Shown in pieces: positions 3,401 to 24,058 of a stretch of DNA of 31,596 nt (its first letter is position 1; each line of letters starts with the position of its first letter). A model generated the notes under the pieces. The model made no database searches, was not told the origin of the DNA, and worked only from the letters and a program-made list of their open reading frames with translations. The position numbers and the translations under genes were made by a program. Source of the DNA: Candidatus Schekmanbacteria bacterium RIFCSPLOWO2_02_FULL_38_14 (GTDB taxonomy: Bacteria; Schekmanbacteria; GWA2-38-11); assembly GCA_001790855.1 (NCBI GenBank), contig MGDH01000007.1, forward strand, positions 1 through 31,596, given 5' to 3'.

Positions 3401-3505
3401 TAAAAAAAATTTGTTAATAAAATATTCTTATTTTTAACTCTTTTATAATTTAGAAAAGCGTTGATGAAAAAAATGCTTTTCATGAAAAAATTTTATGGAG
3501 GATCT

Positions 3506-6277
3506 ATGAGGAGGGAATCAGTTTTTAAGATTACAGTCATTTTCATATCTTCTTTCCTGATTTTCGCTTTAACCTGTGCAGGCTTGTTTGCTGCAGAAAT
3601 GGGATTTGTAAATGGTAAAGTTGCAGACAAGAAAAGCAAATCGCCTCTTCCTGGTATCACCATTACTGTTGAAGGGAAGGATGCCATCGGATTTACAGAT
3701 GATAAGGGAAATTATTCTCTTACGCTTCCAGAAGGAACATACACGATAAGGGCTGAACTTCTTGGGTATAAAACAGCAGAGGCAAAAAAAGTTGTTGTTG
3801 AAGCAGGCGAAACCAATAACGTAAATTTTGCTCTTGAAGAGTTTGAGGCTATAAAGGGTGAAGAGGTAGTTGTTACAGGAGAAAGGACAGGTGTCCCCCT
3901 GTCAAAAACAACTGCCTCAGTTTCTGTAGTTTCTTCCCAGCAGGCAAAAGACCTTGCCTCTTCAGGGAATGCCTCAGACATGCTCGCATATACACCCGGA
4001 GTTCAGATGGAGGGTGGCGGAAGCGGAGCTAGCAAAACCATAAAAATAAGAGGCGCAACAATTGCCCCTCCAAAGGTTACAACCGCAGGAATACTGATGC
4101 TGGTGGATGGAGTTCCAATGAACGACCCTATCTCGGGATATGCATCTCTGTACATGATTCCTTCAGAGAATATTGAGAGGATAGAGGTTCTGAAAGGAGC
4201 TTCTTCAGCCCAGTACGGAGGGCAGGCTGCGGCAGGAGTAATCAACATTATTACTAAAAAGGGAAAGAAAGAACCAAGAACAAGCTTTGATATGTCCTTT
4301 GGAACATATCAGTCAAGAGCTAACGCTGAGGATGAATATACTCAGAATTACTCATTTTCCCACAGTTGGGGAAATGACTGGATTGACTACAACCTAAGCG
4401 GAAGTTATGGAGTAACTACAGGGTTTACAACTGCAGAAACAGCAAAGGTTGGAAAGGTTTTTATAGAGTTTGGGAAAGCATATCCTGATAATAAGGTTTA
4501 TGATCGCCACGGAATTAAGCATCTGCCCAACGGTTCTCTAATATATTCCTCAGGAGGTCCTAAATATTTCGGCAAGGATTTGAATATTCTTATGGATGCC
4601 GGAAGTGATATGGACGCGATGGAAAGATATTCTTTCAATTTAAGTTTAGGAATCAAACTTTTCAAGAACAACACACTCAGGATAAACCCGGGTTACTCAT
4701 ATCTTCAGTTTTTTGTTCCTTTTACGCCTGACATGAATCCTTTTAAGAGGTCAGACGATGTATTTCTCCAGATGTTTCTGAATGTAATAAACAAAAGAGA
4801 CTACATTAACTTCTTGGACGAATGGAAAATAACTCCAAAATTAACATACAAGTTAAGGGGCGTAGTCCAGAAATCAACAGAGGGAGGTATATTTATTCCT
4901 GTGCTTGATTATGTAGATGAGCCTCTGGAACGTGAAGCCTTAGGGTTCAAAGATGGATTTGCCGGCGGAGACGGGAAATCTCCTTTTCTTCCAACTCCCG
5001 GAACAACCATTGGCAGAAGCTGGACCATGGCAAATGACTTTTCCTATGATTTTGATATCCTTGATGGGAATACATTATCAGTTGGTCATGAATATCAGTG
5101 GATGAAACTTGATGCGCCTTTGAGCAAAAACGGCGGGAGCCAGCTCTATACAAAAGATATTCTTTACCGTAAATCCTCTTCTCTGTTTTTCCAGAGTCTT
5201 CAAAAGGCTGGAAAGTTAAGTGTTTCCCTTGGTGGAAGATGGGACCAGATGACAACTTTCATTAATGACCGTGAAGATGAATTTTCACCAAGGCTCGGAT
5301 TAAATTACGAGATTTCACCCGGAACAAGTTTAAGGGCATCTGTTGGAAGGGCAAGGCGTTTTATAGAATTTGCCAGAACCAATGGACTTGGCCAGAGCAA
5401 CGGGGTTCTTTTTGGAAATCCTAAAATAGGTCCGGAAATAAACTGGAGCTGGGAACTCGGATTCAAGTTTCTTGCCAAATACCTGGGCGGTGATATAGCA
5501 TATTTCTATAATGATTACTCTGATTTTGAAACACCGGTTCCATTGAATATAGGCGCCATTCCCGCTGAAATAGCTGGAGATTCTGCCAATGCGAGAGCAA
5601 GAAGGCAATATATGGAGATGTACAACTATGTCAGGAAATATTATCCTTTTAAAATGCCCACACCTGAAGAAGGATTAACAGCAACGAAATATATGCAGCA
5701 GTGGTTGGGAGCTTCTGTTCCGGCAGGAGTGGCTACTGAGAATGCTAATGCAGGAATGTTTGCCAATGGTACTAAAGTAGTTTATCAGGGGTTTGATACT
5801 TCTGTTGAGCTTAATCCTCTAAAAGATCTGAATATAAACTTGTCATATCTTTTTACAAGGGCAACTGTAGGCAATCAGAACCCTTTTGATTTTTCACAGG
5901 GTAAAAAACAGTCTGTTCTCCTTTCTTCTACAAGCAAAGGACTTGGTCCTGCATTTCACGGAGGAGACAGGCTGATATATATTCCAACCCATGTTTTTAA
6001 AATTTCCTCAAACTATACCTTGCCATTCGGGTTAAGAGTGATTGCATCAGGAAGGTACAAAAGTGAAGCGACTACAATTACAAGAACCGCAGTTGGAGGA
6101 ACATTCAATATGCCTAAACACTGGATATTTGACCTCAAGTTTGTTCAGCCATTTTTCAATAATAAATTTAAACTTAGTTTCTCTATCGAGAATGTCTTCA
6201 GCAGAAAATATTATGCAGAGAGTGTTATTCCTTCAAATGTGGCAAGATATGATTTAGGAATTAGTTATAGTTTCTAA
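3506..6277 (+). CDS. TonB-dependent outer-membrane receptor
   Basis: A 923-residue receptor. I choose the ATG at 3506 because GGAGG precedes it directly and it begins a normal signal peptide (basic MRRES start, hydrophobic core, cleavage near LFAA). The open frame extends 15 codons upstream without a better site. After the signal come a carboxypeptidase-regulatory-like beta-sandwich (about residues 35-110), a TonB-box-like EEVVVTGER segment, a plug domain (about 120-245, with IERIEVLKGASSAQYG) and a long 22-strand-type barrel. The barrel ends in a terminal phenylalanine (LGISYSF), the usual outer-membrane assembly signal. Such receptors import siderophores, cobalamin, glycans or other large ligands using ExbBD-TonB energy; the ligand is unknown. 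An IS element sits just past the stop codon. Confidence 0.93.
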   Translation: MRRESVFKITVIFISSFLIFALTCAGLFAAEMGFVNGKVADKKSKSPLPGITITVEGKDAIGFTDDKGNYSLTLPEGTYTIRAELLGYKTAEAKKVVVEAGETNNVNFALEEFEAIKGEEVVVTGERTGVPLSKTTASVSVVSSQQAKDLASSGNASDMLAYTPGVQMEGGGSGASKTIKIRGATIAPPKVTTAGILMLVDGVPMNDPISGYASLYMIPSENIERIEVLKGASSAQYGGQAAAGVINIITKKGKKEPRTSFDMSFGTYQSRANAEDEYTQNYSFSHSWGNDWIDYNLSGSYGVTTGFTTAETAKVGKVFIEFGKAYPDNKVYDRHGIKHLPNGSLIYSSGGPKYFGKDLNILMDAGSDMDAMERYSFNLSLGIKLFKNNTLRINPGYSYLQFFVPFTPDMNPFKRSDDVFLQMFLNVINKRDYINFLDEWKITPKLTYKLRGVVQKSTEGGIFIPVLDYVDEPLEREALGFKDGFAGGDGKSPFLPTPGTTIGRSWTMANDFSYDFDILDGNTLSVGHEYQWMKLDAPLSKNGGSQLYTKDILYRKSSSLFFQSLQKAGKLSVSLGGRWDQMTTFINDREDEFSPRLGLNYEISPGTSLRASVGRARRFIEFARTNGLGQSNGVLFGNPKIGPEINWSWELGFKFLAKYLGGDIAYFYNDYSDFETPVPLNIGAIPAEIAGDSANARARRQYMEMYNYVRKYYPFKMPTPEEGLTATKYMQQWLGASVPAGVATENANAGMFANGTKVVYQGFDTSVELNPLKDLNINLSYLFTRATVGNQNPFDFSQGKKQSVLLSSTSKGLGPAFHGGDRLIYIPTHVFKISSNYTLPFGLRVIASGRYKSEATTITRTAVGGTFNMPKHWIFDLKFVQPFFNNKFKLSFSIENVFSRKYYAESVIPSNVARYDLGISYSF

Positions 6278-6291
6278 AAATATTTTATTTA

Positions 6292-7189
6292 GGTGATTGT
6301 AAAACTTTTGGCACCAAATTATAGTGGTGCTAATGAATCTAAATACATTTGAATACCTATGTAAAACAGAAAACAAAGCACGGCTTTATTTTAAGAAAAA
6401 CTGCTGGAAAAACAGCCATGTTTTTTGCACAACTTGTAGAAGCTATAAAATCTATAGGATTCCAGATAAAAGATACCGTTGTAAGCGCTGTGGTTACAGA
6501 TTCCATGACTTTACCGGCAGATGGATTAATAGACTGAATATATCTTTTAAAAAATGGCTTTGGATTATAAAGCTTTTTGAACTTGAGGTATCTGCAAGAA
6601 AGATAGCCCAACAAGTTCAATTGAGCTACCCTACAGTTCTTAAGGCTGTTACTTTCTTGAGAATTACTATTGTAGTCAGCACTAAAGGAGCCCAGGAACT
6701 TCTTAATGGGGAGATAGAGCTTGATGAAACATATTTTGGTGGAAGACGCAAAGGTAAACGTGGCAGAGGTGCATATAACAAAGTCCCTGTATTCGGTATT
6801 CTCGAGAGAGATGGGGTTGTTAAAGTTGAAGTGCTTAAAGATGTTACTGCCCAATCCATTCTTAACATGACTATTAAAACTGTAAGAAGAGGTTCTATTG
6901 TTTACACTGATAAGTTCAGAAGCTATGATGCCCTTATGTTTTGTGGGTATAGACATTTGAGAATTGATCATGGTAAAAGATTTGCAAGAGGAAAAGTTTA
7001 CATCAATGGCCTTGAGGGGTTCTGGAGTTATGCTAAAGAAAGACTTATTAAGTTTCATGGCGTATCTCAAAAAAAGTTTCCTTTTTACTTGAAAGAAATG
7101 GAATTCCGTTACAATAATAGAAACAAAGATATATTCTCTTTACTGGTTAAAAATATGTGTAACTTCGTGCCAAATCTTTTATAATCACC
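6292..7189 (+). mobile_element. Complete IS1595-family insertion sequence (898 bp)
   Basis: The element is bounded by imperfect terminal inverted repeats at 6292-6315 (GGTGATTGTAAAACTTTTGG...) and 7166-7189, which agree at most of 24 positions. It encodes one transposase. The flanking 8-bp duplications are identical, the inverted repeats are nearly perfect and the transposase frame is open, suggesting recent and possibly still functional transposition. It lies just beyond the TonB receptor stop codon and may separate that gene from whatever followed. Confidence 0.92.
6333..7184 (+). CDS. IS1595-family (ISXO2-like) transposase
   Basis: A 283-residue transposase if started at the ATG at 6333; an in-frame GTG at 6324 is possible. 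The N-terminus has a zinc ribbon (CTTC near residue 31 and CKRC near 49). An HTH-like region follows (SARKIAQQVQLSYPTVLKA), then an ISXO2-like DDE-type catalytic domain: first acidic residue in ELDETYFGGRRKG, second in IVYTDKFRSYDAL, third in the INGLEGFWSYAKERL segment, with the trailing lysine typical of IS1595. The length fits the family. The frame ends inside the right inverted repeat region. No frameshift or truncation is seen. Confidence 0.93.
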   Translation: MNLNTFEYLCKTENKARLYFKKNCWKNSHVFCTTCRSYKIYRIPDKRYRCKRCGYRFHDFTGRWINRLNISFKKWLWIIKLFELEVSARKIAQQVQLSYPTVLKAVTFLRITIVVSTKGAQELLNGEIELDETYFGGRRKGKRGRGAYNKVPVFGILERDGVVKVEVLKDVTAQSILNMTIKTVRRGSIVYTDKFRSYDALMFCGYRHLRIDHGKRFARGKVYINGLEGFWSYAKERLIKFHGVSQKKFPFYLKEMEFRYNNRNKDIFSLLVKNMCNFVPNLL

Positions 7190-7210
7190 TTTATTTAAAC
7201 ATGGGATGAT

Positions 7211-7426
7211 ATGAAAAAAATAAAAATTATTTCTGTATATTCTCCTCTCAAAGTATCTTATTCACTCTTAGGTATGGTGGTCGGTGGAATTGCTTACGGG
7301 CTGACGCTTGGTAACAATCATGTTACAATGGGAATCTTGAATCCGTCTTGCAGAGGGACATATGTTATAACTCCAAAGATTCTCACTGCTGAAGGACCTG
7401 TTTATTTTGCAGGTAAAGCTGACTGA
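7211..7426 (+). CDS. Short hypothetical protein, possibly degraded lipoprotein
   Basis: A 71-residue frame with only a weak ribosome site (GGGATGAT). It has a glycine-rich hydrophobic segment (LLGMVVGGIAYGLTLG, about residues 19-34) and a C-terminal half with a PSCRGTYVITPKI segment. The segment YSPLKVSYS after a very short basic start looks like what follows a lipoprotein cysteine, with the signal peptide shortened and the cysteine lost. That reading is a guess. It lies just downstream of the IS, among other small or damaged genes. Confidence 0.4.
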   Translation: MKKIKIISVYSPLKVSYSLLGMVVGGIAYGLTLGNNHVTMGILNPSCRGTYVITPKILTAEGPVYFAGKAD

Positions 7427-11359: not shown

Positions 11360-11422
11360 GACCTTAACGTTATGGATAGTTTTTAATTAAAATTAACCTA
11401 AAAATTGAAAAGGAGGAAAACA

Positions 11423-12706
11423 ATGTTTTGTTATCAATGTGAACAGACCCCGACGGGAGGCTGCACAAAAATAGGGGTATGCGGCAAGAATGAAGATGTT
11501 GCGAGTCTTCAGGATACGCTGTTATTCGGACTGAAAGGCATTGCTGCCTACGGATTCCATGCAAGGGAGCTTGGTGCATCTGACCCGGAGATTGATTCTT
11601 TTATGTATGAAGCCCTTTTTTCCACAGTAACAAATGTGGACTTTGATGCAGGACGTTTTGTAAAGCTGGTTTTAAAATGTGGTGAAATGAATCTTAAGGT
11701 AATGAAACTTCTTGATGAAGCCCATACAAAACGTTTCGGCAATCCTGTCCCCACAGAGGTTACAGTGGGTACAAAGAAAGGAAAGGGAATTGTTGTAACA
11801 GGACACGATTTGCTTGACCTTTATGAGTTGCTGAAGCAGACAGAAGGGAAGGGTATTAATGTTTATACCCATAGCGAAATGCTCCCTGCGCACGGATATC
11901 CTGAACTCAAGAAGTTTAAGCATCTTGCAGGAAATTATGGAGGGACTTGGCATTCCCAGAAGGATGAATTTGAGAAATTCTCCGGTGCCATTCTTGGGAC
12001 CACTAACTGTGTCATGCCGCCTAAAGAATCCTATAAAGACAGGTTCTTTACCTGCGGCATAACAGGGCTTGACGGAGTAAAGCATATTGAAGGGAGAAAC
12101 TTTAAGGCTGTTATAGATAAAGCCCTTTCTCTTCCAGAGCTTCCGGAAGCGCCGGGAAAGAAGATTATGACAGGTTTCCATCACACGGCAATTCTTGGTA
12201 TTGCTGATAAGGTAATAGGTGCAGTAAAAGCAGGAAAAATAAAACGCTTTTTCTTAATAGGCGGATGCGATGCTCCGGGCAAGGGTGGCGAATATTTCAC
12301 TGAGTTTGCAAAGCTTGTTCCAAAGGATTGCGTTATACTGACCCTTGCATGCGGGAAGTACCGTATAAACAATATAGACTATGGAAACATTGATGGTATT
12401 CCAAGACTAATTGATATTGGTCAGTGCAACAATTCATATTCAGCCGTACAGGTTGCTGTTGCACTTGCAGGTGCTTTCAACTGCGGCGTAAATGACCTTC
12501 CGTTGTCCCTTGTGCTGTCATGGTTTGAGCAGAAGGCTGTTGCAATCCTTCTCTCTCTGCTGAATTTGGGGATAAAGAATATATATGTAGGTCCAAAGCC
12601 TCCTGCGTTTATAACACCGGGGGTATTCAAGGTGTTGCAGGATAATTTCAATCTCCAACTCGTATCATCTCCTGAAAAGGATATGAAGGCGATATTGGGG
12701 AAATAA
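11423..12706 (+). CDS. hcp: Hybrid-cluster protein / hydroxylamine reductase (short form)
   Basis: A 427-residue protein started at the ATG at 11423 (MFCYQCEQ), behind AAGGAGGAAAACA; the open frame runs six codons further upstream from a TTG. The N-terminal cluster cysteines are C3, C6, C14 and C20. The hybrid-cluster ligands are all recognisable: His in TGHDLLDL, Glu in THSEMLPAHGYP, Cys in GTTNCVMPP, Cys in LIGGCDAPG (the persulfide position), Cys in TLACGKYR, Cys in DIGQCNNSY, and Glu in LSWFEQKAV. It is about 100-120 residues shorter than the usual 530-550-residue class I/II Hcp, lacking one helical bundle near the N-terminus, as in short class III members. Hcp reduces hydroxylamine in vitro and acts as a nitric-oxide reductase in vivo. 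The upstream CRP/FNR-type site fits nitrosative control. Confidence 0.93.
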   Translation: MFCYQCEQTPTGGCTKIGVCGKNEDVASLQDTLLFGLKGIAAYGFHARELGASDPEIDSFMYEALFSTVTNVDFDAGRFVKLVLKCGEMNLKVMKLLDEAHTKRFGNPVPTEVTVGTKKGKGIVVTGHDLLDLYELLKQTEGKGINVYTHSEMLPAHGYPELKKFKHLAGNYGGTWHSQKDEFEKFSGAILGTTNCVMPPKESYKDRFFTCGITGLDGVKHIEGRNFKAVIDKALSLPELPEAPGKKIMTGFHHTAILGIADKVIGAVKAGKIKRFFLIGGCDAPGKGGEYFTEFAKLVPKDCVILTLACGKYRINNIDYGNIDGIPRLIDIGQCNNSYSAVQVAVALAGAFNCGVNDLPLSLVLSWFEQKAVAILLSLLNLGIKNIYVGPKPPAFITPGVFKVLQDNFNLQLVSSPEKDMKAILGK

Positions 12707-13802: not shown

Positions 13803-13983
13803 TTTTTCTCCTTTTACATTTACTTTACATTTTAGTAACAATTATTTACAGACTTTTTAAATTAATTTAAATATAACAAACCATTATATTAAAAACAATT
13901 TTTTAAGGAGGTGAAGAAAATCAGTTAATCTAATATGTCTTAGCATTTAAACTCAATTTCTAATTTTAAAGGAGGAACCTATA

Positions 13984-15147
13984 GTGTTCAAAAAAAATAT
14001 TAAATTAATTTTAATGCTCATGGCAATCGGAGTATTTGCAACCTTTTTAATAAGTATTTTATCCTCATTTGCCGGAGAAGAAGAAACCAGCCACGACATG
14101 TCTGCTATGCAGCAAGGGACCATGGCAACCCAGGGAACAACTCAGGGTAAGACTCCTGAAGCAGTACAGGGAACAGATAACAAGCAGGCAATGCCGCCGG
14201 GTATGACTCATGATTCCGGGAGCCATGCAAAACACTCAGGGCATTCATGGGAAGATATGAAGAAGTGGCCCGGTATGGAGAACAGGACAAAAGAAGAACT
14301 TGATGCAATGATGATGATGATGGCTCCTGACCACGAAGTTTATGTAAGCAGCAAGGATCTCAAGAAAGATGTTGGAGTTATTGTAATTGCTCATGGCGGA
14401 ACCAAAGTATGGAATGATTCGCTTGCAAAATCTTTAGCGAAGATTTCCAACACATTTCCAACAACCGTTGCATTTGGAATGGCAATGGGAAATTCTTCAC
14501 ACATTCAGGAAGGAATTAATCATTTAGAAGAGGCAGGTGCAAAGACAATTGTAGTTGTAATGGCATTTTTCAACGAGTACAATGAAGTTGCAGACCAGAT
14601 AAAATATATTTTCGGGCTTTCAGATAAACCGGAGTGGCCTCCTGTTGAAAGGGTGAAATCAAAGGCAAAAATAGTATTTGCTCACTATATGGATGACAAT
14701 CCTCTTCTTGCAGAGATTTTAACAGACCATGCAAAGGCAATAAGCTCTAACCCTAAAAAAGAGACAGTCATAATAGTTGGTCATGGCCCTGTTAACCCTG
14801 ATTACAACAAAAGAAATATTGGAGTAATGAAAAAAATAGCTAAAGAGGTGAAGGCTTCAGGCGGGTTTAATGATGTGAAGGCATGGAACCTTCAGGATGA
14901 TGCTCCAAAAAATATAAGAGATGCAAATGTTGAAAAAATCAGAGGAATGATAGGAGAAGCAACCAAAGCTGGTAACAAGGTTCTCATTGTAGGAATGCTG
15001 ATTTCAAGCAGAGGAATCCAGCATAAACTGAAAACTGACTTCAAGGATCTTGAATATAAATTTAACGAAGAAGGCGTTGTTAAGCATGAGAATTTTGGAC
15101 TGTGGGTTGGAGAAGCAGTAAGAAAAGTGATTATAAAAGAAGAGTAG
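13984..15147 (+). CDS. Exported CbiX-like chelatase with Met/His-rich N-terminus
   Basis: A 387-residue protein starting at GTG (13984), eight bases after GGAGG. A hydrophobic segment at about residues 7-30 ending LSSFAGEEE is a signal peptide or anchor, so the protein works in the periplasm. Residues 34-120 form a low-complexity, Met/His/Gln-rich segment (for example HAKHSGHSWEDMKK and five consecutive Met at 109-113), resembling metal-binding linkers. Residues 128-385 form a two-lobed CbiX/sirohydrochlorin-chelatase domain with H137 in VIVIAHGG and H267 in VIIVGHGPVN. CbiX/CbiK insert cobalt, or related enzymes insert iron or nickel, into sirohydrochlorin-type tetrapyrroles. Periplasmic versions such as CbiK(P) of Desulfovibrio are known. 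No cobalamin or heme genes are adjacent; a two-component system follows. Metal and substrate are unknown. Confidence 0.82.
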   Translation: MFKKNIKLILMLMAIGVFATFLISILSSFAGEEETSHDMSAMQQGTMATQGTTQGKTPEAVQGTDNKQAMPPGMTHDSGSHAKHSGHSWEDMKKWPGMENRTKEELDAMMMMMAPDHEVYVSSKDLKKDVGVIVIAHGGTKVWNDSLAKSLAKISNTFPTTVAFGMAMGNSSHIQEGINHLEEAGAKTIVVVMAFFNEYNEVADQIKYIFGLSDKPEWPPVERVKSKAKIVFAHYMDDNPLLAEILTDHAKAISSNPKKETVIIVGHGPVNPDYNKRNIGVMKKIAKEVKASGGFNDVKAWNLQDDAPKNIRDANVEKIRGMIGEATKAGNKVLIVGMLISSRGIQHKLKTDFKDLEYKFNEEGVVKHENFGLWVGEAVRKVIIKEE

Positions 15148-15160
15148 GGATAACAAGTTA

Positions 15161-15256
15161 GGATTCAAGGATTCGAGTGGTCAAGGGTTCAGGTGAGAAA
15201 TTTGTATTGTTGTTTTGTTTTTATATTTTCACTAGAACCCTTGAATCCTTTAACCC
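15161..15256. repeat. Inverted repeat with hairpin downstream of chelatase
   Basis: TCAAGGGTTCAGGTGA (15181) pairs with a complementary arm ending at 15244 (TTTTCACTAGAACCCTTGA), with a T-rich loop. Flanking copies of GGATTCAAGGATTC (15161) and the reverse-complementary GAATCCTTTAACCC extend the structure. The same words make up the repeat at 30368-30476, so this is a dispersed element that may also terminate the chelatase transcript. Confidence 0.65.
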
Positions 15257-15282
15257 TTTTCTAAAATAAGTGGATATTTATT

Positions 15283-15984
15283 ATGGCAAATATCAAGGTA
15301 CTCATAATAGATGATGACAAGAAGCTGGTAGGAATGATTAAAAACTATCTTGAAAAAGATGGTTATGAAATAATTGCTGCTTTTGATGGAGCAGAAGGAA
15401 TAGAGAAAACCGAGAGTCATCGCCCGGACCTTGTCATTCTTGATTTAATGCTTCCGAAACTTGACGGACTCGAGGTTTGCAAACTTATAAGGAAAGAATC
15501 CTCAATGCCTATTCTGATGCTTTCGGCTAAGGGAGAAGAAGCAGATATTGTTGTAGGTCTTGAGCTTGGCGCAGATGATTATTTGAGCAAGCCATTCAGC
15601 CTAAGAGAACTTTCTGCGCGTGTAAAAGCAATCCTGAGAAGGGTTTCAAAACTTAAAGAAGACGAAAAGAGTAAAAAGAAAATTCTGAAATATAAGATTT
15701 TACAGATAGATTTTCAAAAACACGAAGTTACAATAAATGGTGAAAAAACTGAGTTGACTGCTACTGAGTTTGCTCTTCTGGAAATGCTTGCAACCAACCC
15801 CGGAAGGGTTTTTACGAGAGACCAGTTGCTTGACGGAGTAAGGGGCAGAGAGCTTACTCCCTTTGACAGGTCAATTGACATTCATATCAGCCACCTCAGA
15901 CAGAAGATTGAACCTGATCCCAAAGAACCAACATATATAAAAACAGTCTGGGGTGTGGGGTATAAATTTGAAGATGAAGAATAA
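15283..15984 (+). CDS. OmpR/PhoB-family response regulator
   Basis: A 233-residue two-domain regulator. The receiver domain (about residues 4-116) has the acidic pocket D10-D12, phospho-acceptor D54 in LVILDLMLPKLDG, a conserved S in LMLSAKGEEAD and the lysine in DDYLSKPFS. The C-terminal winged helix (about 135-230) carries the trans-regulatory signature: LTATEFALLEMLATNPG, the GRVFTRDQLLD helix, RSIDIHISHLRQKIEPDP and VWGVGYKF. It overlaps the sensor kinase gene by one base (TAATG), so the pair is co-transcribed. The chelatase gene lies 135 bp upstream with an inverted repeat between, so co-regulation is possible but not certain. DNA targets are unknown. Confidence 0.95.
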   Translation: MANIKVLIIDDDKKLVGMIKNYLEKDGYEIIAAFDGAEGIEKTESHRPDLVILDLMLPKLDGLEVCKLIRKESSMPILMLSAKGEEADIVVGLELGADDYLSKPFSLRELSARVKAILRRVSKLKEDEKSKKKILKYKILQIDFQKHEVTINGEKTELTATEFALLEMLATNPGRVFTRDQLLDGVRGRELTPFDRSIDIHISHLRQKIEPDPKEPTYIKTVWGVGYKFEDEE

Positions 15985-17402
15985 TGATTAAGATTTCAAT
16001 TTTCTGGAAAACCATACTACTTTTTTTAGCCTACCTTTTTCTTGCAAATGGAGTGATGCTTCTTTTCTATTTTCTGACAGAATCTCCGGAAACAATAACC
16101 TCTGACATAACAAAAGCCGTAATCACTGATGCGTCAGTAATTACAAAAAATATAGAGGATGAAATAAAAAACAGAAAAGATACTCAGGAGGTAAAAAGCC
16201 TTGAAGAGCTTAAAATGTTAAAAGGGATAGTTGAGAAGGAAAACAGGTATGTAAGAGTTTTAAATCTATCAGGGGATATAGTTTTTGAGACGCCGATTGA
16301 AGCAGGGCGCAGAAGTGAAAGGCTTACAGAAAAGGAGATAATTGAAGTTCAGAAGAGAGGGTTTTTAATCGGCAAGGGGCATGCGACATTTTTCAGAAGC
16401 ACAATAGAAATTACCCTGCCATTAAAAGCTGAAGGAAAGACTTTAGGTTTAATTCAGGTATCTTACCCGAAAACAAACCCGTCAAGACTTAAGAAAATTA
16501 TCAGCTTTGCAATAGTGATTGAGGCGATTATCATTGCTTTTCTGGCAATGCTTTTTTCCAAATGGTTTTCAATACCCATAAGAGAATTAATCAGAGCAGC
16601 TGAACAGATAGCCAAGGGGAATCTTGGTTATCATGCAGAGGTAAAATCCTCTGATGAAATAGGAGACCTCACCAATACATTCAATTATATGTCAAAAACT
16701 CTTGCAGATATGACAAAACTGAGAAGGGAGCTGACTGCGGATATCTCGCATGAACTGAGGTCCCCTCTCACAAGAATCCGGGTTTCTGCTGAAAGTCTGG
16801 TTGATAAAGTGGTAGATGACGAGAATGAAAAAGAGATGCATTTGCAGGCTATATGCAAAGAGGTTGACGATTTGAACTCGTTGATTGGAGACCTTCTTGA
16901 ATTATCCAAGTTAGAACTTGACAGAGTTAAGATGGAATATTCCCCTACCAGCTTAAAAGAGGTTATTAACAGTGTAGTGACAAAGATGACCCCAGTGATA
17001 AAAAGGGGGAAAGTCTCTGTAGAGGTTTACATAGAAGAGCAAATTCCTGACATTCTTCTTGATGGCAAGGGGATTAGCCGAGTGTTGGCTAATTTATTGG
17101 ATAATTCTTTAAAATATACAAACAGTAACGGTAAAATAAAAATCAGTGTTACTGAGAAGGATAGCTTCATTAATGTGAGCATTGAAGACAACGGTAAAGG
17201 TATTCCTCAGGAGGAATTGCCATTTATTTTTGAACGGTTTTACCGTATAGATAAGTCGAGAGCAAGAGAAACAGGAGGAACAGGGCTTGGTCTTGCAATT
17301 GCCAAACAGATTGTAAAAGCCCACGGGGGAGAAATTTTTGCACAGAGCAAAGCGGGTGAGGGTACCATAATGACATTTTCTCTTCCCAAGAGGAGAAGAT
17401 GA
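15984..17402 (+). CDS. Membrane sensor histidine kinase
   Basis: A 472-residue partner of the preceding regulator. It has two membrane helices (about residues 8-31 and 172-195) around a periplasmic sensor domain of about 140 residues. A HAMP domain follows (SIPIRELIRAAEQIAKGNLGY, about 195-245), then a dimerisation/phosphoacceptor domain with H256 in ELTADISHELRSPL. The ATPase domain has the N box (LANLLDNSLKYT), the G1 box (DNGKGIP), the F box (FERFYRID) and the G2 box (GGTGLGLAI). All catalytic motifs are intact. The periplasmic domain was not recognised, so its signal is unknown; an envelope metal or stress signal would suit the exported chelatase next door. Confidence 0.94.
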   Translation: MIKISIFWKTILLFLAYLFLANGVMLLFYFLTESPETITSDITKAVITDASVITKNIEDEIKNRKDTQEVKSLEELKMLKGIVEKENRYVRVLNLSGDIVFETPIEAGRRSERLTEKEIIEVQKRGFLIGKGHATFFRSTIEITLPLKAEGKTLGLIQVSYPKTNPSRLKKIISFAIVIEAIIIAFLAMLFSKWFSIPIRELIRAAEQIAKGNLGYHAEVKSSDEIGDLTNTFNYMSKTLADMTKLRRELTADISHELRSPLTRIRVSAESLVDKVVDDENEKEMHLQAICKEVDDLNSLIGDLLELSKLELDRVKMEYSPTSLKEVINSVVTKMTPVIKRGKVSVEVYIEEQIPDILLDGKGISRVLANLLDNSLKYTNSNGKIKISVTEKDSFINVSIEDNGKGIPQEELPFIFERFYRIDKSRARETGGTGLGLAIAKQIVKAHGGEIFAQSKAGEGTIMTFSLPKRRR

Positions 17403-21617: not shown

Positions 21618-21773
21618 GTTTATTGTAACTGTCGCTGTTGTATGGGGGACAAAAAGATAGCAGATGCCGTTTTTGATTTTGCTCTCATCAACTACTTTTT
21701 GAACCTCGTCTGTAATGTCTATCAGTTCTGTTCTTCTTGTGATTTTGATGGGGATTTGTTTTAGCGTTTGTAT
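21618..21773 (-). pseudogene. YjbQ/UPF0047 N-terminal remnant
   Basis: On the minus strand, about 52 codons immediately after and overlapping the end of pilU encode a clear YjbQ-type N-terminus: ITRRTELIDITDEVQKVV and then CYLFVPHTTATVTIN, the family's strand-turn with the conserved HTTA. The full family is about 130-140 residues, so two-thirds is missing. The match stops at 21618, next to the UPF0182 stop codon, and the frame then reads unrelated sequence. The expected start codon is ATA (21773-21771), which cannot serve well. A deletion or rearrangement joining two loci explains it. YjbQ proteins have been linked to secondary thiamine-phosphate synthase activity. Confidence 0.8.
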
Positions 21774-22894
21774 GGGTCTTGAGATTTAATCTTGAATGAA
21801 GGCTCTTTTTCCTTTTTCTCATCTTTCTTATCACTAATCTCATCCATTTTTATTCTCAGCCTGAGGTCATTTGCGCTGTCAGCATAGGCAATGGCATTAT
21901 CATAGGTTATTCTTTCTGCTTTATATAAATTATAAAGAGCCTGGTCAAAAGTCTGCATTCCTTCCTGAGTTCCTTCAGCCATTACTTCCTTTAAAATACC
22001 AACCTCGCCTTTAAGAATAAGGTCTTTAACTCTTGATGTATCAAGAAGGACTTCAATTGCTGCTGCTCTTTTCCCGTCAACTGTTGGGATAAGGCGCTGT
22101 GAAATTATTGCCTTCAGGTTCAATGAAAGAAGGAGATATATCTGAGAATGGCGCTCGGTAGGGAAAAAGTTCAGTACCCTTTCAATTGACTGGTTTGCAT
22201 TGTTGGCGTGAAGTGTTCCTAAGCAGAGATGGCCTGTTTCAGCAAAGGTTATTGCTGATTCCATTGTTTCAGTATCCCTTATCTCACCTATGAGAATCAC
22301 ATCAGGCGCCTGTCTCAATGTGTTTTTCAGTGCATTTGCAAATGAATGGGTGTCAAATCCAACCTCACGCTGGGTAATAACAGATTTCTTATGGTGATGA
22401 ACGAATTCAATAGGGTCTTCAATTGAGATGATGTGCCCGGAAGAATTACTGTTTCTGTGGTCAATCATTGCTGCAAGCGAGGTTGATTTTCCTGAACCTG
22501 TACCACCTACAACCAAAACCATTCCCCTTTTTGCCATTATTATGTCTTTTAGAATAGGAGGAAGTCCAAGCTGGTCTACGGTTTTTATATCAAGTTTTAT
22601 CTGCCTTATTACAATCCCGACATTTCCCCTCTGAACAAATATATTCACCCTGAACCTTCCAAGTTCAGGAAAAAAGAGGGCAAGGTTCATCTCTTTTGTC
22701 TCTTCAAATTCTTTTTTCTGCCAGTCATTCATTGTGGAATAAGCAAGTTCTTTGGTCTGTTCCGGAGTAAATTTATCATTTCCAAATGGTTCAGTTACCC
22801 CTTCTGTGCGGTACATAGAAGGAAGCTCTGCAGTTATATAAATATCTGATGAATCTCTTTTAACCATTTCTCTGACAAGGTCTTGTATAGTCAT
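21761..22894 (-). CDS. pilU: Type IV pilus retraction ATPase, PilU-like
   Basis: A 377-residue hexameric motor ATPase of the PilT/GspE superfamily. Walker A is GGTGSGKST (residues 130-138). The Asp box and Walker B region (DVILIGEIRD) and the His box (GHLCLGTLHANNANQ) are intact. The wording FAETGHLCLGTLHANNANQSIERVLNFFP and TLRQAPDVILIGEIRD is nearer to PilU than to PilT. The charged C-terminal tail (KKDEKKEKEPSF) is typical of PilU. It follows PilT on the same strand, with GGAGG before its ATG. PilU assists PilT in pilus retraction, powering twitching, adhesion or DNA uptake. Confidence 0.88.
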   Translation of the reverse strand: MTIQDLVREMVKRDSSDIYITAELPSMYRTEGVTEPFGNDKFTPEQTKELAYSTMNDWQKKEFEETKEMNLALFFPELGRFRVNIFVQRGNVGIVIRQIKLDIKTVDQLGLPPILKDIIMAKRGMVLVVGGTGSGKSTSLAAMIDHRNSNSSGHIISIEDPIEFVHHHKKSVITQREVGFDTHSFANALKNTLRQAPDVILIGEIRDTETMESAITFAETGHLCLGTLHANNANQSIERVLNFFPTERHSQIYLLLSLNLKAIISQRLIPTVDGKRAAAIEVLLDTSRVKDLILKGEVGILKEVMAEGTQEGMQTFDQALYNLYKAERITYDNAIAYADSANDLRLRIKMDEISDKKDEKKEKEPSFKIKSQDPYKR

Positions 22895-22917
22895 TTTCGA
22901 ACCTCCTTTTTAACTTG

Positions 22918-23005
22918 TAAGTGAACAGTAGTTAGTGAATAGTAATCAGTGAAGAGTCTTGAAAAAATATTTTTTCTTACTAAATACTATTCACTGTTAA
23001 CTATT
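22918..23005. repeat. Degenerate AGTGAA-type inverted repeat between pilT and pilU
   Basis: GTGAACAGTAGTTAGTGAATAG (from 22921, tandem-like words of AGTGAAT/AGTAAT type) faces a reverse-complementary block ACTATTCACTGTTAACTATTC (22985-23005). The pair could fold into a long imperfect hairpin in the pil message. It resembles the other drifting repeat families in the window. Confidence 0.5.
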
Positions 23006-23017
23006 CTCTTCTTTCTC

Positions 23018-24058
23018 TTATCCCAGGACTGACGGGCTTGAAACCAACTGCAGAACTTCATTCTTTGCAACTATGTTTTTCTGAACAAGGTCCTTGATTG
23101 CCTGGTCCATTGTCTGCATACCGAATTTCTGGCTTGTCTGGATGATTGACGGAATCTGCGATATCTTCGCTTCCCTGATAAGATTTCTTATTGCAGGAGT
23201 ACCCATCATTATTTCAATAGCAGCAACCCTTCCCTTGCCATCCCTTCTTTTAATGAGTGTCTGGGTAACAACAGCCTGGATAGATTCTGAGAACATTGCC
23301 CTTATTTGTTCCTGCTGTTCAGGCGGGAAAACATCAATGACCCTGTCAACAGTCTTTGGTGCGCTTGATGTATGAAGCGTTCCGAAAACAAGATGCCCTG
23401 TTTCTGCTGCTGTAAGGGCTAACTGAATGGTTTCAAGGTCTCTCATTTCTCCAACAAGAATTATATCAGGGTCCTCCCTGAGTGAGGCTCTCAAGGCATT
23501 GGAAAAACTGTGGGTATGGGGTCCGAGTTCTCTCTGGCTAATCAGGCACTCTTTTGATTTGTGGACAAACTCTATTGGGTCTTCAATCGTAATTATATGC
23601 CCCTTGAATTCATTGTTTATCAGGTCAATCATTGCAGCCAATGTTGTTGATTTACCGCTTCCTGTTGGACCTGTTACAAGAACCAGCCCTTTTTCAGCCC
23701 TCGCTATGTCTGCGAGGGTTTTTGGAAGCCCGAGTTCTTCAAAGGTCATAATTTTTGTCGGGATTGTCCTGAAGACTGCTGATTCACCGCGTGCCTGGAC
23801 AAAGGCATTGACCCTGAACCTTGCTATCTCTTTAAGGGCGATTGAGAAATCAATCTCGTGGCTTTCTTCAAAAACCTTTCTCTGCTGGTCATTAAGTATG
23901 TCGTAGAGGAGGGAGTGGACTTCTTCTTTTGAAAGGGACGGCATATCAACTTTTTGCATATCGCCGTTAATGCGGAGCATTGGTGGTTCTCCTGAGCTTA
24001 TGTGGAGGTCAGAAGCACCCTGACCGTGAGAGAACAACAGAAGTTCGGAAATATCCAT
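23018..24058 (-). CDS. pilT: Type IV pilus retraction ATPase PilT
   Basis: A 346-residue PilT. The N-terminal PAS-like domain begins GASDLHISSGEPPMLRI, followed by the RecA-like domain with Walker A GPTGSGKST (residues 130-138). Then come the Asp box, Walker B (DIILVGEMRD) and the His box (GHLVFGTLHTSSAPKTVDRVIDVFP). The C-terminal IRNLIREAKISQIPSIIQT segment contains the AIRNLIRE motif needed for retraction in known PilT proteins. Length is normal. It starts behind GGAGG and is followed on the same strand by PilU, 123 bp away. It disassembles pilin at the inner-membrane platform; no pilus structural genes are in the window. Confidence 0.94.
   Translation of the reverse strand: MDISELLLFSHGQGASDLHISSGEPPMLRINGDMQKVDMPSLSKEEVHSLLYDILNDQQRKVFEESHEIDFSIALKEIARFRVNAFVQARGESAVFRTIPTKIMTFEELGLPKTLADIARAEKGLVLVTGPTGSGKSTTLAAMIDLINNEFKGHIITIEDPIEFVHKSKECLISQRELGPHTHSFSNALRASLREDPDIILVGEMRDLETIQLALTAAETGHLVFGTLHTSSAPKTVDRVIDVFPPEQQEQIRAMFSESIQAVVTQTLIKRRDGKGRVAAIEIMMGTPAIRNLIREAKISQIPSIIQTSQKFGMQTMDQAIKDLVQKNIVAKNEVLQLVSSPSVLG

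Follow-up and report, generated by a model that had tools for sequence, protein, structure and literature searches.

Described Counterparts of the Locus

Class II chelatases have so far been studied nearly always as cytoplasmic enzymes that build cofactors. Their catalytic histidine pair is retained either in the N-terminal lobe (CbiX-L and SirB) or in the C-terminal lobe (CbiK and Paracoccus CbiX), and in HemH a glutamate replaces one catalytic histidine (PMC7689651, PMC4063343). CbiX-L of B. megaterium has a C-terminal His-rich region for which metal storage has been proposed (PMC7689651), and FetB/IhtB of Porphyromonas has been described as a putative ferrochelatase/reverse ferrochelatase and as a metal-exchanging chelatase (PMC13227078, PMC13402209). 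In the copMRS operon of Synechocystis, the copper-induced periplasmic copper-binding protein CopM is encoded beside CopRS (PMC4335983). Here, we describe a locus in a stretch of 31,596 nt from a Candidatus Schekmanbacteria genome (the whole stretch is referred to as the window), in which a gene for a protein with a predicted signal peptide, a Met-rich tail, and a chelatase fold is followed by genes for a response regulator and a histidine kinase (table 1). The original prediction, made from the DNA sequence alone, read these genes as a possible periplasmic metal- or tetrapyrrole-handling module with its own sensor. Our analyses lead us to give about even chances to a periplasmic metal-stress or metal-supply module, in which an exported chelatase-fold effector is under the control of its own envelope sensor.

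The locus resembles copMRS in that an exported Met/His-rich protein is encoded beside an OmpR-type regulator and a kinase in both. However, CopM consists of two DUF305 domains, whereas the window protein has a chelatase fold and no DUF305 match in Pfam; copMRS has been described as an operon, whereas here hairpins intervene between the chelatase and regulator genes in two of the three genomes; and the cut-offs of the heavy-metal kinase/regulator subfamilies are missed here. The two-lobed fold is shared with B. subtilis SirB (5ZT7-5ZTA) and Paracoccus CbiX (4CCS) and the C-lobe histidines, as placed by sequence alignment, may correspond to the pair of the latter, but these are cytoplasmic siroheme/cobalamin enzymes, whereas the window protein is exported, Met-tailed, and broken in the N-lobe pair. 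In B. megaterium CbiX-L, the enriched region is His-rich and C-terminal, in contrast to the N-terminal Met-rich region described here. FetB/IhtB of P. gingivalis and the periplasmic CbiK of Desulfovibrio vulgaris are, like the window protein, chelatase-fold proteins of the cell envelope; they differ in belonging to the CbiK-like branch and not to CbiX, and FetB is tied to heme and porphyrin handling. We know of no Met tail or adjoining kinase for FetB or CbiK. No TonB heme receptor adjoins the chelatase gene in the three Schekmanbacteria genomes G000, G001, and G002, which differs from the FetB/IhtB-type arrangement.

Table 1. Features of the chelatase-regulator-kinase locus (window coordinates)
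Feature	Position	Strand	Basis
Direct repeat TTTACATTTAC-TTTACATTT, 11-bp period; candidate regulator binding site	13813-13832	+	Flanked by the chelatase gene on one side and the divergent ROK gene on the other
CbiX/SirB-fold protein of 387 aa, exported, with Met-rich tail	13984-15147	+	ORF (open reading frame) and translation, NCBIfam CfbA match, AlphaFold model, SirB fold match
Signal peptide, residues 1-30, predicted cleavage SFA/GEE	13984-14073	+	Hydrophobic core 9-25, (-3,-1) rule
Met/His/Gln-rich linker, residues 35-129	14086-14370	+	Composition test; pLDDT (predicted local distance difference test) <50 for 27-89
Two-lobed class II chelatase domain	14371-15144	+	Alignments, fold search
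OmpR/PhoB-family response regulator (receiver and winged helix)	15283-15984	+	Pfam Response_reg 2.8e-32, Trans_reg_C 1.4e-28
Membrane histidine kinase (periplasmic sensor ~residues 30-170, HAMP, HisKA, HATPase)	15984-17402	+	Pfam HAMP, HisKA, HATPase_c

Conserved Pairing with a Two-Component System

The ORF list and Pfam analysis bore out the coordinates and order originally given for the three genes: the regulator gene follows the chelatase gene after a gap of 135 bp and overlaps the kinase gene by 1 bp, and, as had been noted, no cobalamin or heme gene adjoins the chelatase gene in the window. The chelatase ORF has a GTG start with the ribosome-binding site AGGAGG upstream. The phylum comprises four genomes, the host of the window (G000) and G001, G002, and G003, and we followed the pairing across them. 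The nearest ortholog of the chelatase is that of Candidatus Schekmanbacteria GWA2_38_11. Orthologs with 71% and 45% identity are encoded in G001 and G002, respectively, and each is followed by an orthologous regulator (81% and 70% identity) and an orthologous kinase (64% and 41% identity), orthology in the three loci being supported by identity as well as gene order. The order chelatase-regulator-kinase is therefore kept in all three informative genomes, which represent two families. The G001 locus is weak evidence because its entire neighborhood is common with G000. G002 belongs to the other family and has different neighbors (alaS, a nitrogenase-like gene, rho, and prfA), and the three genes are thus still together there in different surroundings. 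In G003, a regulator-kinase pair is arranged as in G002, and the contig stops 95 bp before the regulator, at the expected position of the chelatase gene. We therefore did not count G003 as lacking the pairing, as the contig end accounts for the missing chelatase. The adjacency from which the link between chelatase and sensor had been proposed is thus conserved, and the link is strengthened by the gene order in three genomes and by the shared promoter repeat described below.

TIGR01386, the model for heavy-metal kinases, covers the entire kinase at a score of 195.9, which is below the cut-off of 292.55, and the score for the corresponding regulator subfamily (TIGR01387) is likewise below its cut-off (161.3 vs. 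279.2).

Two features were seen between the chelatase and regulator genes. The gap in the window (15148-15282) contains an imperfect inverted repeat of the GGATTCAAGG / CCTTGAATCC type that may be a dispersed element, and the G001 locus (L008, ~7060-7300) has what by eye looks like the remnant of a GIY-YIG-type gene, interrupted by an internal stop and with repeats on both sides. On the other side of the two-component system, a lone nitrogenase component 1-type gene is convergent with the kinase gene in G002 (L009:4308-5735) and G003 (L050:2246-3613). Relatives of nitrogenase component 1 act in tetrapyrrole and F430 synthesis, and this neighborhood may therefore matter.

A Promoter Repeat Shared between Orthologous Loci

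Upstream of the chelatase gene, TTTACATTTAC-TTTACATTT is accompanied by a further TTTACA 21 bp beyond it. In the 2.68-Mb genome there is a single exact copy of this pattern, against 0.0014 expected under a Markov model; a reversed-pattern control was uninformative, since the pattern reads alike backwards. An identical pattern is present at the orthologous promoter in G001, and one-mismatch matches were found in G001:C7 and G003:C255, near genes without an evident link. OmpR/PhoB-family regulators bind phased direct repeats of this type, and we infer that the neighboring regulator binds the TTTACA repeat.

Export Signal, Fold, and Active-Site Residues

The proposed N-terminal signal or anchor is, by rule, a signal peptide, with a basic start ahead of the hydrophobic core, and the same is seen in the orthologs. 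The assignment as a CbiX-like chelatase is clear by fold and by NCBIfam and weak by Pfam. The AlphaFold model of the protein is of middling quality (mean pLDDT 64), and a fold search matched residues 128-387 to B. subtilis SirB as the closest structure (Z 17.2, root-mean-square deviation 3.2 over 234 residues), followed by Paracoccus CbiX (Z 15.1) and ferrochelatases (~13.5); two proteins of the cell envelope, FetB of P. gingivalis (9B86, Z 13.6) and the periplasmic CbiK from D. vulgaris (2XVZ, Z 12.4), were also matched. The protein matches the NCBIfam CfbA model with an E value of 7e-12, yet it is under the equivalog cut-off (NF033198, 45 bits vs. 120). With the Pfam CbiX model (PF01903) it scores 18.7 bits and so misses the cut-off of 22, whereas the G001 ortholog scores 25.8 bits and paralogs score 22.1-24.3 bits; the G002 ortholog is unmatched. 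G000 also encodes a separate small CbiX (G000:C21, 64.6 bits) that has no evident signal peptide, and the exported protein is therefore not the sole CbiX of this genome.

H137, H267, H347, H368, and D305-D306 are invariant in the three orthologs, which also keep a DDAP motif. The N-lobe histidine pair is broken in that H137 is kept and the position of CfbA H75 is occupied by E201 (Ser in G002). In the C lobe, H267 and H347 are kept in all three; by sequence alignment they fall into the two motifs of an intact pair, although the model is poor at residues 340-345. Judged from these residues, chelatase chemistry via the C lobe is possible.

The Met-Rich Tail

Residues 35-129 (~95 residues) contain 12 Met, including the five consecutive Met reported originally (residues 109-113), together with six His, six Gln, and no Cys. 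Compared with the composition of the protein's own chelatase domain, Met/His/Gln are enriched with P = 8e-6, and the corresponding values in the two orthologs are 3e-8 and 1.5e-4. The tails of the three orthologs have 12, 15, and 15 Met and 6, 6, and 1 His, respectively. Conservation of the Met/His segment was thus upheld for Met-richness, which is found in all three, and not for His-richness, as the more distant ortholog has a single His. Similarly, the concern that the segment might be variable low-complexity sequence was half justified: the tail sequence does vary, with low identity in residues 35-100 and higher identity in a better conserved linker (~101-129), whereas Met-richness is constant. 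In ~35 other exported homologs and paralogs the linker is 1-46 residues long with 0-1 Met, and the Met-rich tail therefore distinguishes the sensor-linked proteins, a clade recovered as monophyletic (support 100/98). Tails of this type are typical of metal, especially copper, binding. SMBP (small metal-binding protein) also matched the tail, at a score below the cut-off; this match is probably compositional, and we discarded it.

Exported CbiX-Like Proteins in Other Loci and Phyla

G000, G001, and G002 each encode a second exported CbiX-like paralog (L010:5358-6353, L011:3718 on, and L013:6137-7138), also with a signal peptide. The second His is lost in both lobes of these paralogs, and in two of them the C-terminal end is His/Met-rich. 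In G001, the paralog gene lies just behind that of a P1B-type ATPase bearing a heavy-metal domain. Exported CbiX-like proteins were also found in one other, high-GC phylum (that of G334; loci L062-L112), in 54 of 298 sampled genomes at the search threshold used, export having been checked in a subset of those loci. We found no assigned function for this family in the 54 genomes. An exported CbiX-like protein is likewise encoded in a gammaproteobacterium, and a tandem double CbiX-like protein, on which no export signal was found, is encoded on Candidatus Manganitrophus plasmids, in one of them (CP114559.1, L016:9200-10831) with genes for a TonB receptor, PepSY, and a ferritin-like protein downstream. 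This tandem homolog was the only relative identified in a plasmid search, and the viral contigs searched contained none. A scan of genome contigs returned only two loci, because the patterns used were narrow.

A TonB receptor gene lies directly upstream on the same strand in ~10 examined loci of several phyla (L015, L029, L030, L085, L086, L090, L096, L100, L109, and L110; a raw count, uncorrected for background). The L015 receptor is above both heme-receptor cut-offs (TIGR01785 and TIGR01786), and a pseudoazurin gene follows the chelatase gene there. The TonB-linked proteins have the same domain as the window protein and are exported, and most (not L030) share with it a [RQ][DE]D[AW] motif absent from canonical CbiX-L sequences. 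They differ in having neither the Met-rich tail nor a linked orthologous two-component system, and several show the opposite pattern of active-site residues, with the N-lobe pair kept and the second C-lobe His lost. In three loci, all from one clade, genes for multicopper oxidase and for outer-membrane efflux are found nearby (again a raw count). A P1B ATPase near L092 scores as a zinc/cadmium type and was therefore left out of the copper evidence. Taken together, the TonB and copper-gene contexts suggest handling of either metal or metallotetrapyrrole in the envelope.

Candidate Functions of the Sensor-Linked Protein

In the metal-stress or metal-supply module that we consider about evenly balanced between right and wrong, the kinase would sense a periplasmic cue, either metal or stress on the envelope; acting at the TTTACA direct repeat, the regulator would then activate the chelatase gene. 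The effector would be exported, its Met-rich tail would capture a soft metal, most likely copper, and the chelatase domain would hold or exchange that metal and/or bind a metallotetrapyrrole via the C-lobe pair. This reading draws on the kept gene order, the shared unique repeat, Met-richness in all three orthologs, the copMRS-like layout, and copper genes near exported relatives, namely the P1B ATPase beside the G001 paralog, the multicopper oxidase/efflux genes in three loci, and the pseudoazurin at L015. It is also favored by the full-length, though sub-threshold, alignment of the kinase with TIGR01386, by the restriction of the tail to the sensor-linked clade, and by the precedent of class II chelatases whose catalytic pair is confined to the C lobe. 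As to what is handled, we infer that copper or another soft metal ranks first and a heme-type tetrapyrrole second. With more reserve, we suggest as a tentative elaboration that a class II chelatase relocated to the periplasm serves as the output of a dedicated sensor, that the fused Met tail loads metal for buffering or tetrapyrrole-metal exchange, and that the protein is part of a broad and largely unrecognized exported CbiX-like family linked to TonB receptors or copper genes.

Several observations weigh against the metal module. No copper gene adjoins the chelatase gene in the window, and the copper contexts elsewhere may reflect chance or a single lineage. The sensor domain of the kinase contains no Met/His motif, and its structure model is unusable (pLDDT 39) and gives no hint of the signal by fold. 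The G002 promoter has only a looser TTTACA pair at 21 bp, and a different regulator may bind the repeat. Finally, folding revealed strong hairpins 3' of the chelatase gene, ahead of the regulator (z -5.1 in G001 and -4.7 in G002), that a consensus terminator scan had missed; the chelatase is therefore probably transcribed apart from the regulator in these genomes.

Three other readings were weighed. The protein might be a periplasmic (de)chelatase or binder of heme or another metallotetrapyrrole, as proposed for FetB/IhtB, with the tail collecting released or supplied metal. The fold matches to FetB and periplasmic CbiK, the apparently intact C-lobe pair, and the exported relatives directly downstream of TonB receptors, including the heme-type receptor at L015, all favor this, but the sensor-linked clade has no linked TonB or heme gene, the window's own receptor is ~7.7 kb away and not heme-specific, the N-lobe pair is broken, and the TonB-linked relatives do not have the long Met tail, and we regard such a role as doubtful. 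Replacement of the H75 equivalent, scores far under the sirohydrochlorin chelatase equivalog cut-offs, and the enriched tail as the distinctive feature would also fit a degenerate chelatase fold that is a mere scaffold for a Met-rich periplasmic metal sponge without tetrapyrrole chemistry; as the domain is much better conserved than the tail and retains its invariant histidines and DDAP motif, this seems distinctly unlikely. The CbiX fold would also be explained if the protein were simply a siroheme/cobalamin chelatase whose N-terminus is misread or irrelevant, and adjacency alone may be an accident, but the signal peptide recurs in orthologs and paralogs, G000 has another, small CbiX that lacks an evident signal peptide, and the pairing is conserved between families, making this explanation highly improbable. 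Of the role originally proposed, export, the tail, and the link to a sensor gain support, whereas tetrapyrrole handling, or any chelation, is unproven, the N-lobe pair being broken and the C-lobe pair alone being left.

An exported class II chelatase clade with its own tail of the metal-binding type and a dedicated sensor would illustrate reuse of the fold in the cell envelope, be it for metal defense or for metal exchange in imported tetrapyrroles. For an uncultured phylum, the locus also supplies a defined regulator and promoter whose pairing can be tested, and it draws attention to the exported CbiX-like family found in 54 of 298 genomes of the high-GC phylum.

Other Genes in the Window

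The TonB-dependent receptor of the window (3461-6277, 938 aa) has its best matches to SusC, siderophore, and heme classes, all sub-threshold. At 11405-12706 lies the gene for a 433-aa hybrid cluster protein (hydroxylamine reductase) whose N-terminus is shorter than that of the model. By eye, an ORF at 6324-7184 resembles an IS1595/ISXO2-type transposase, and a tandem pair of PilT-like ATPase genes is located at 21761-24058.

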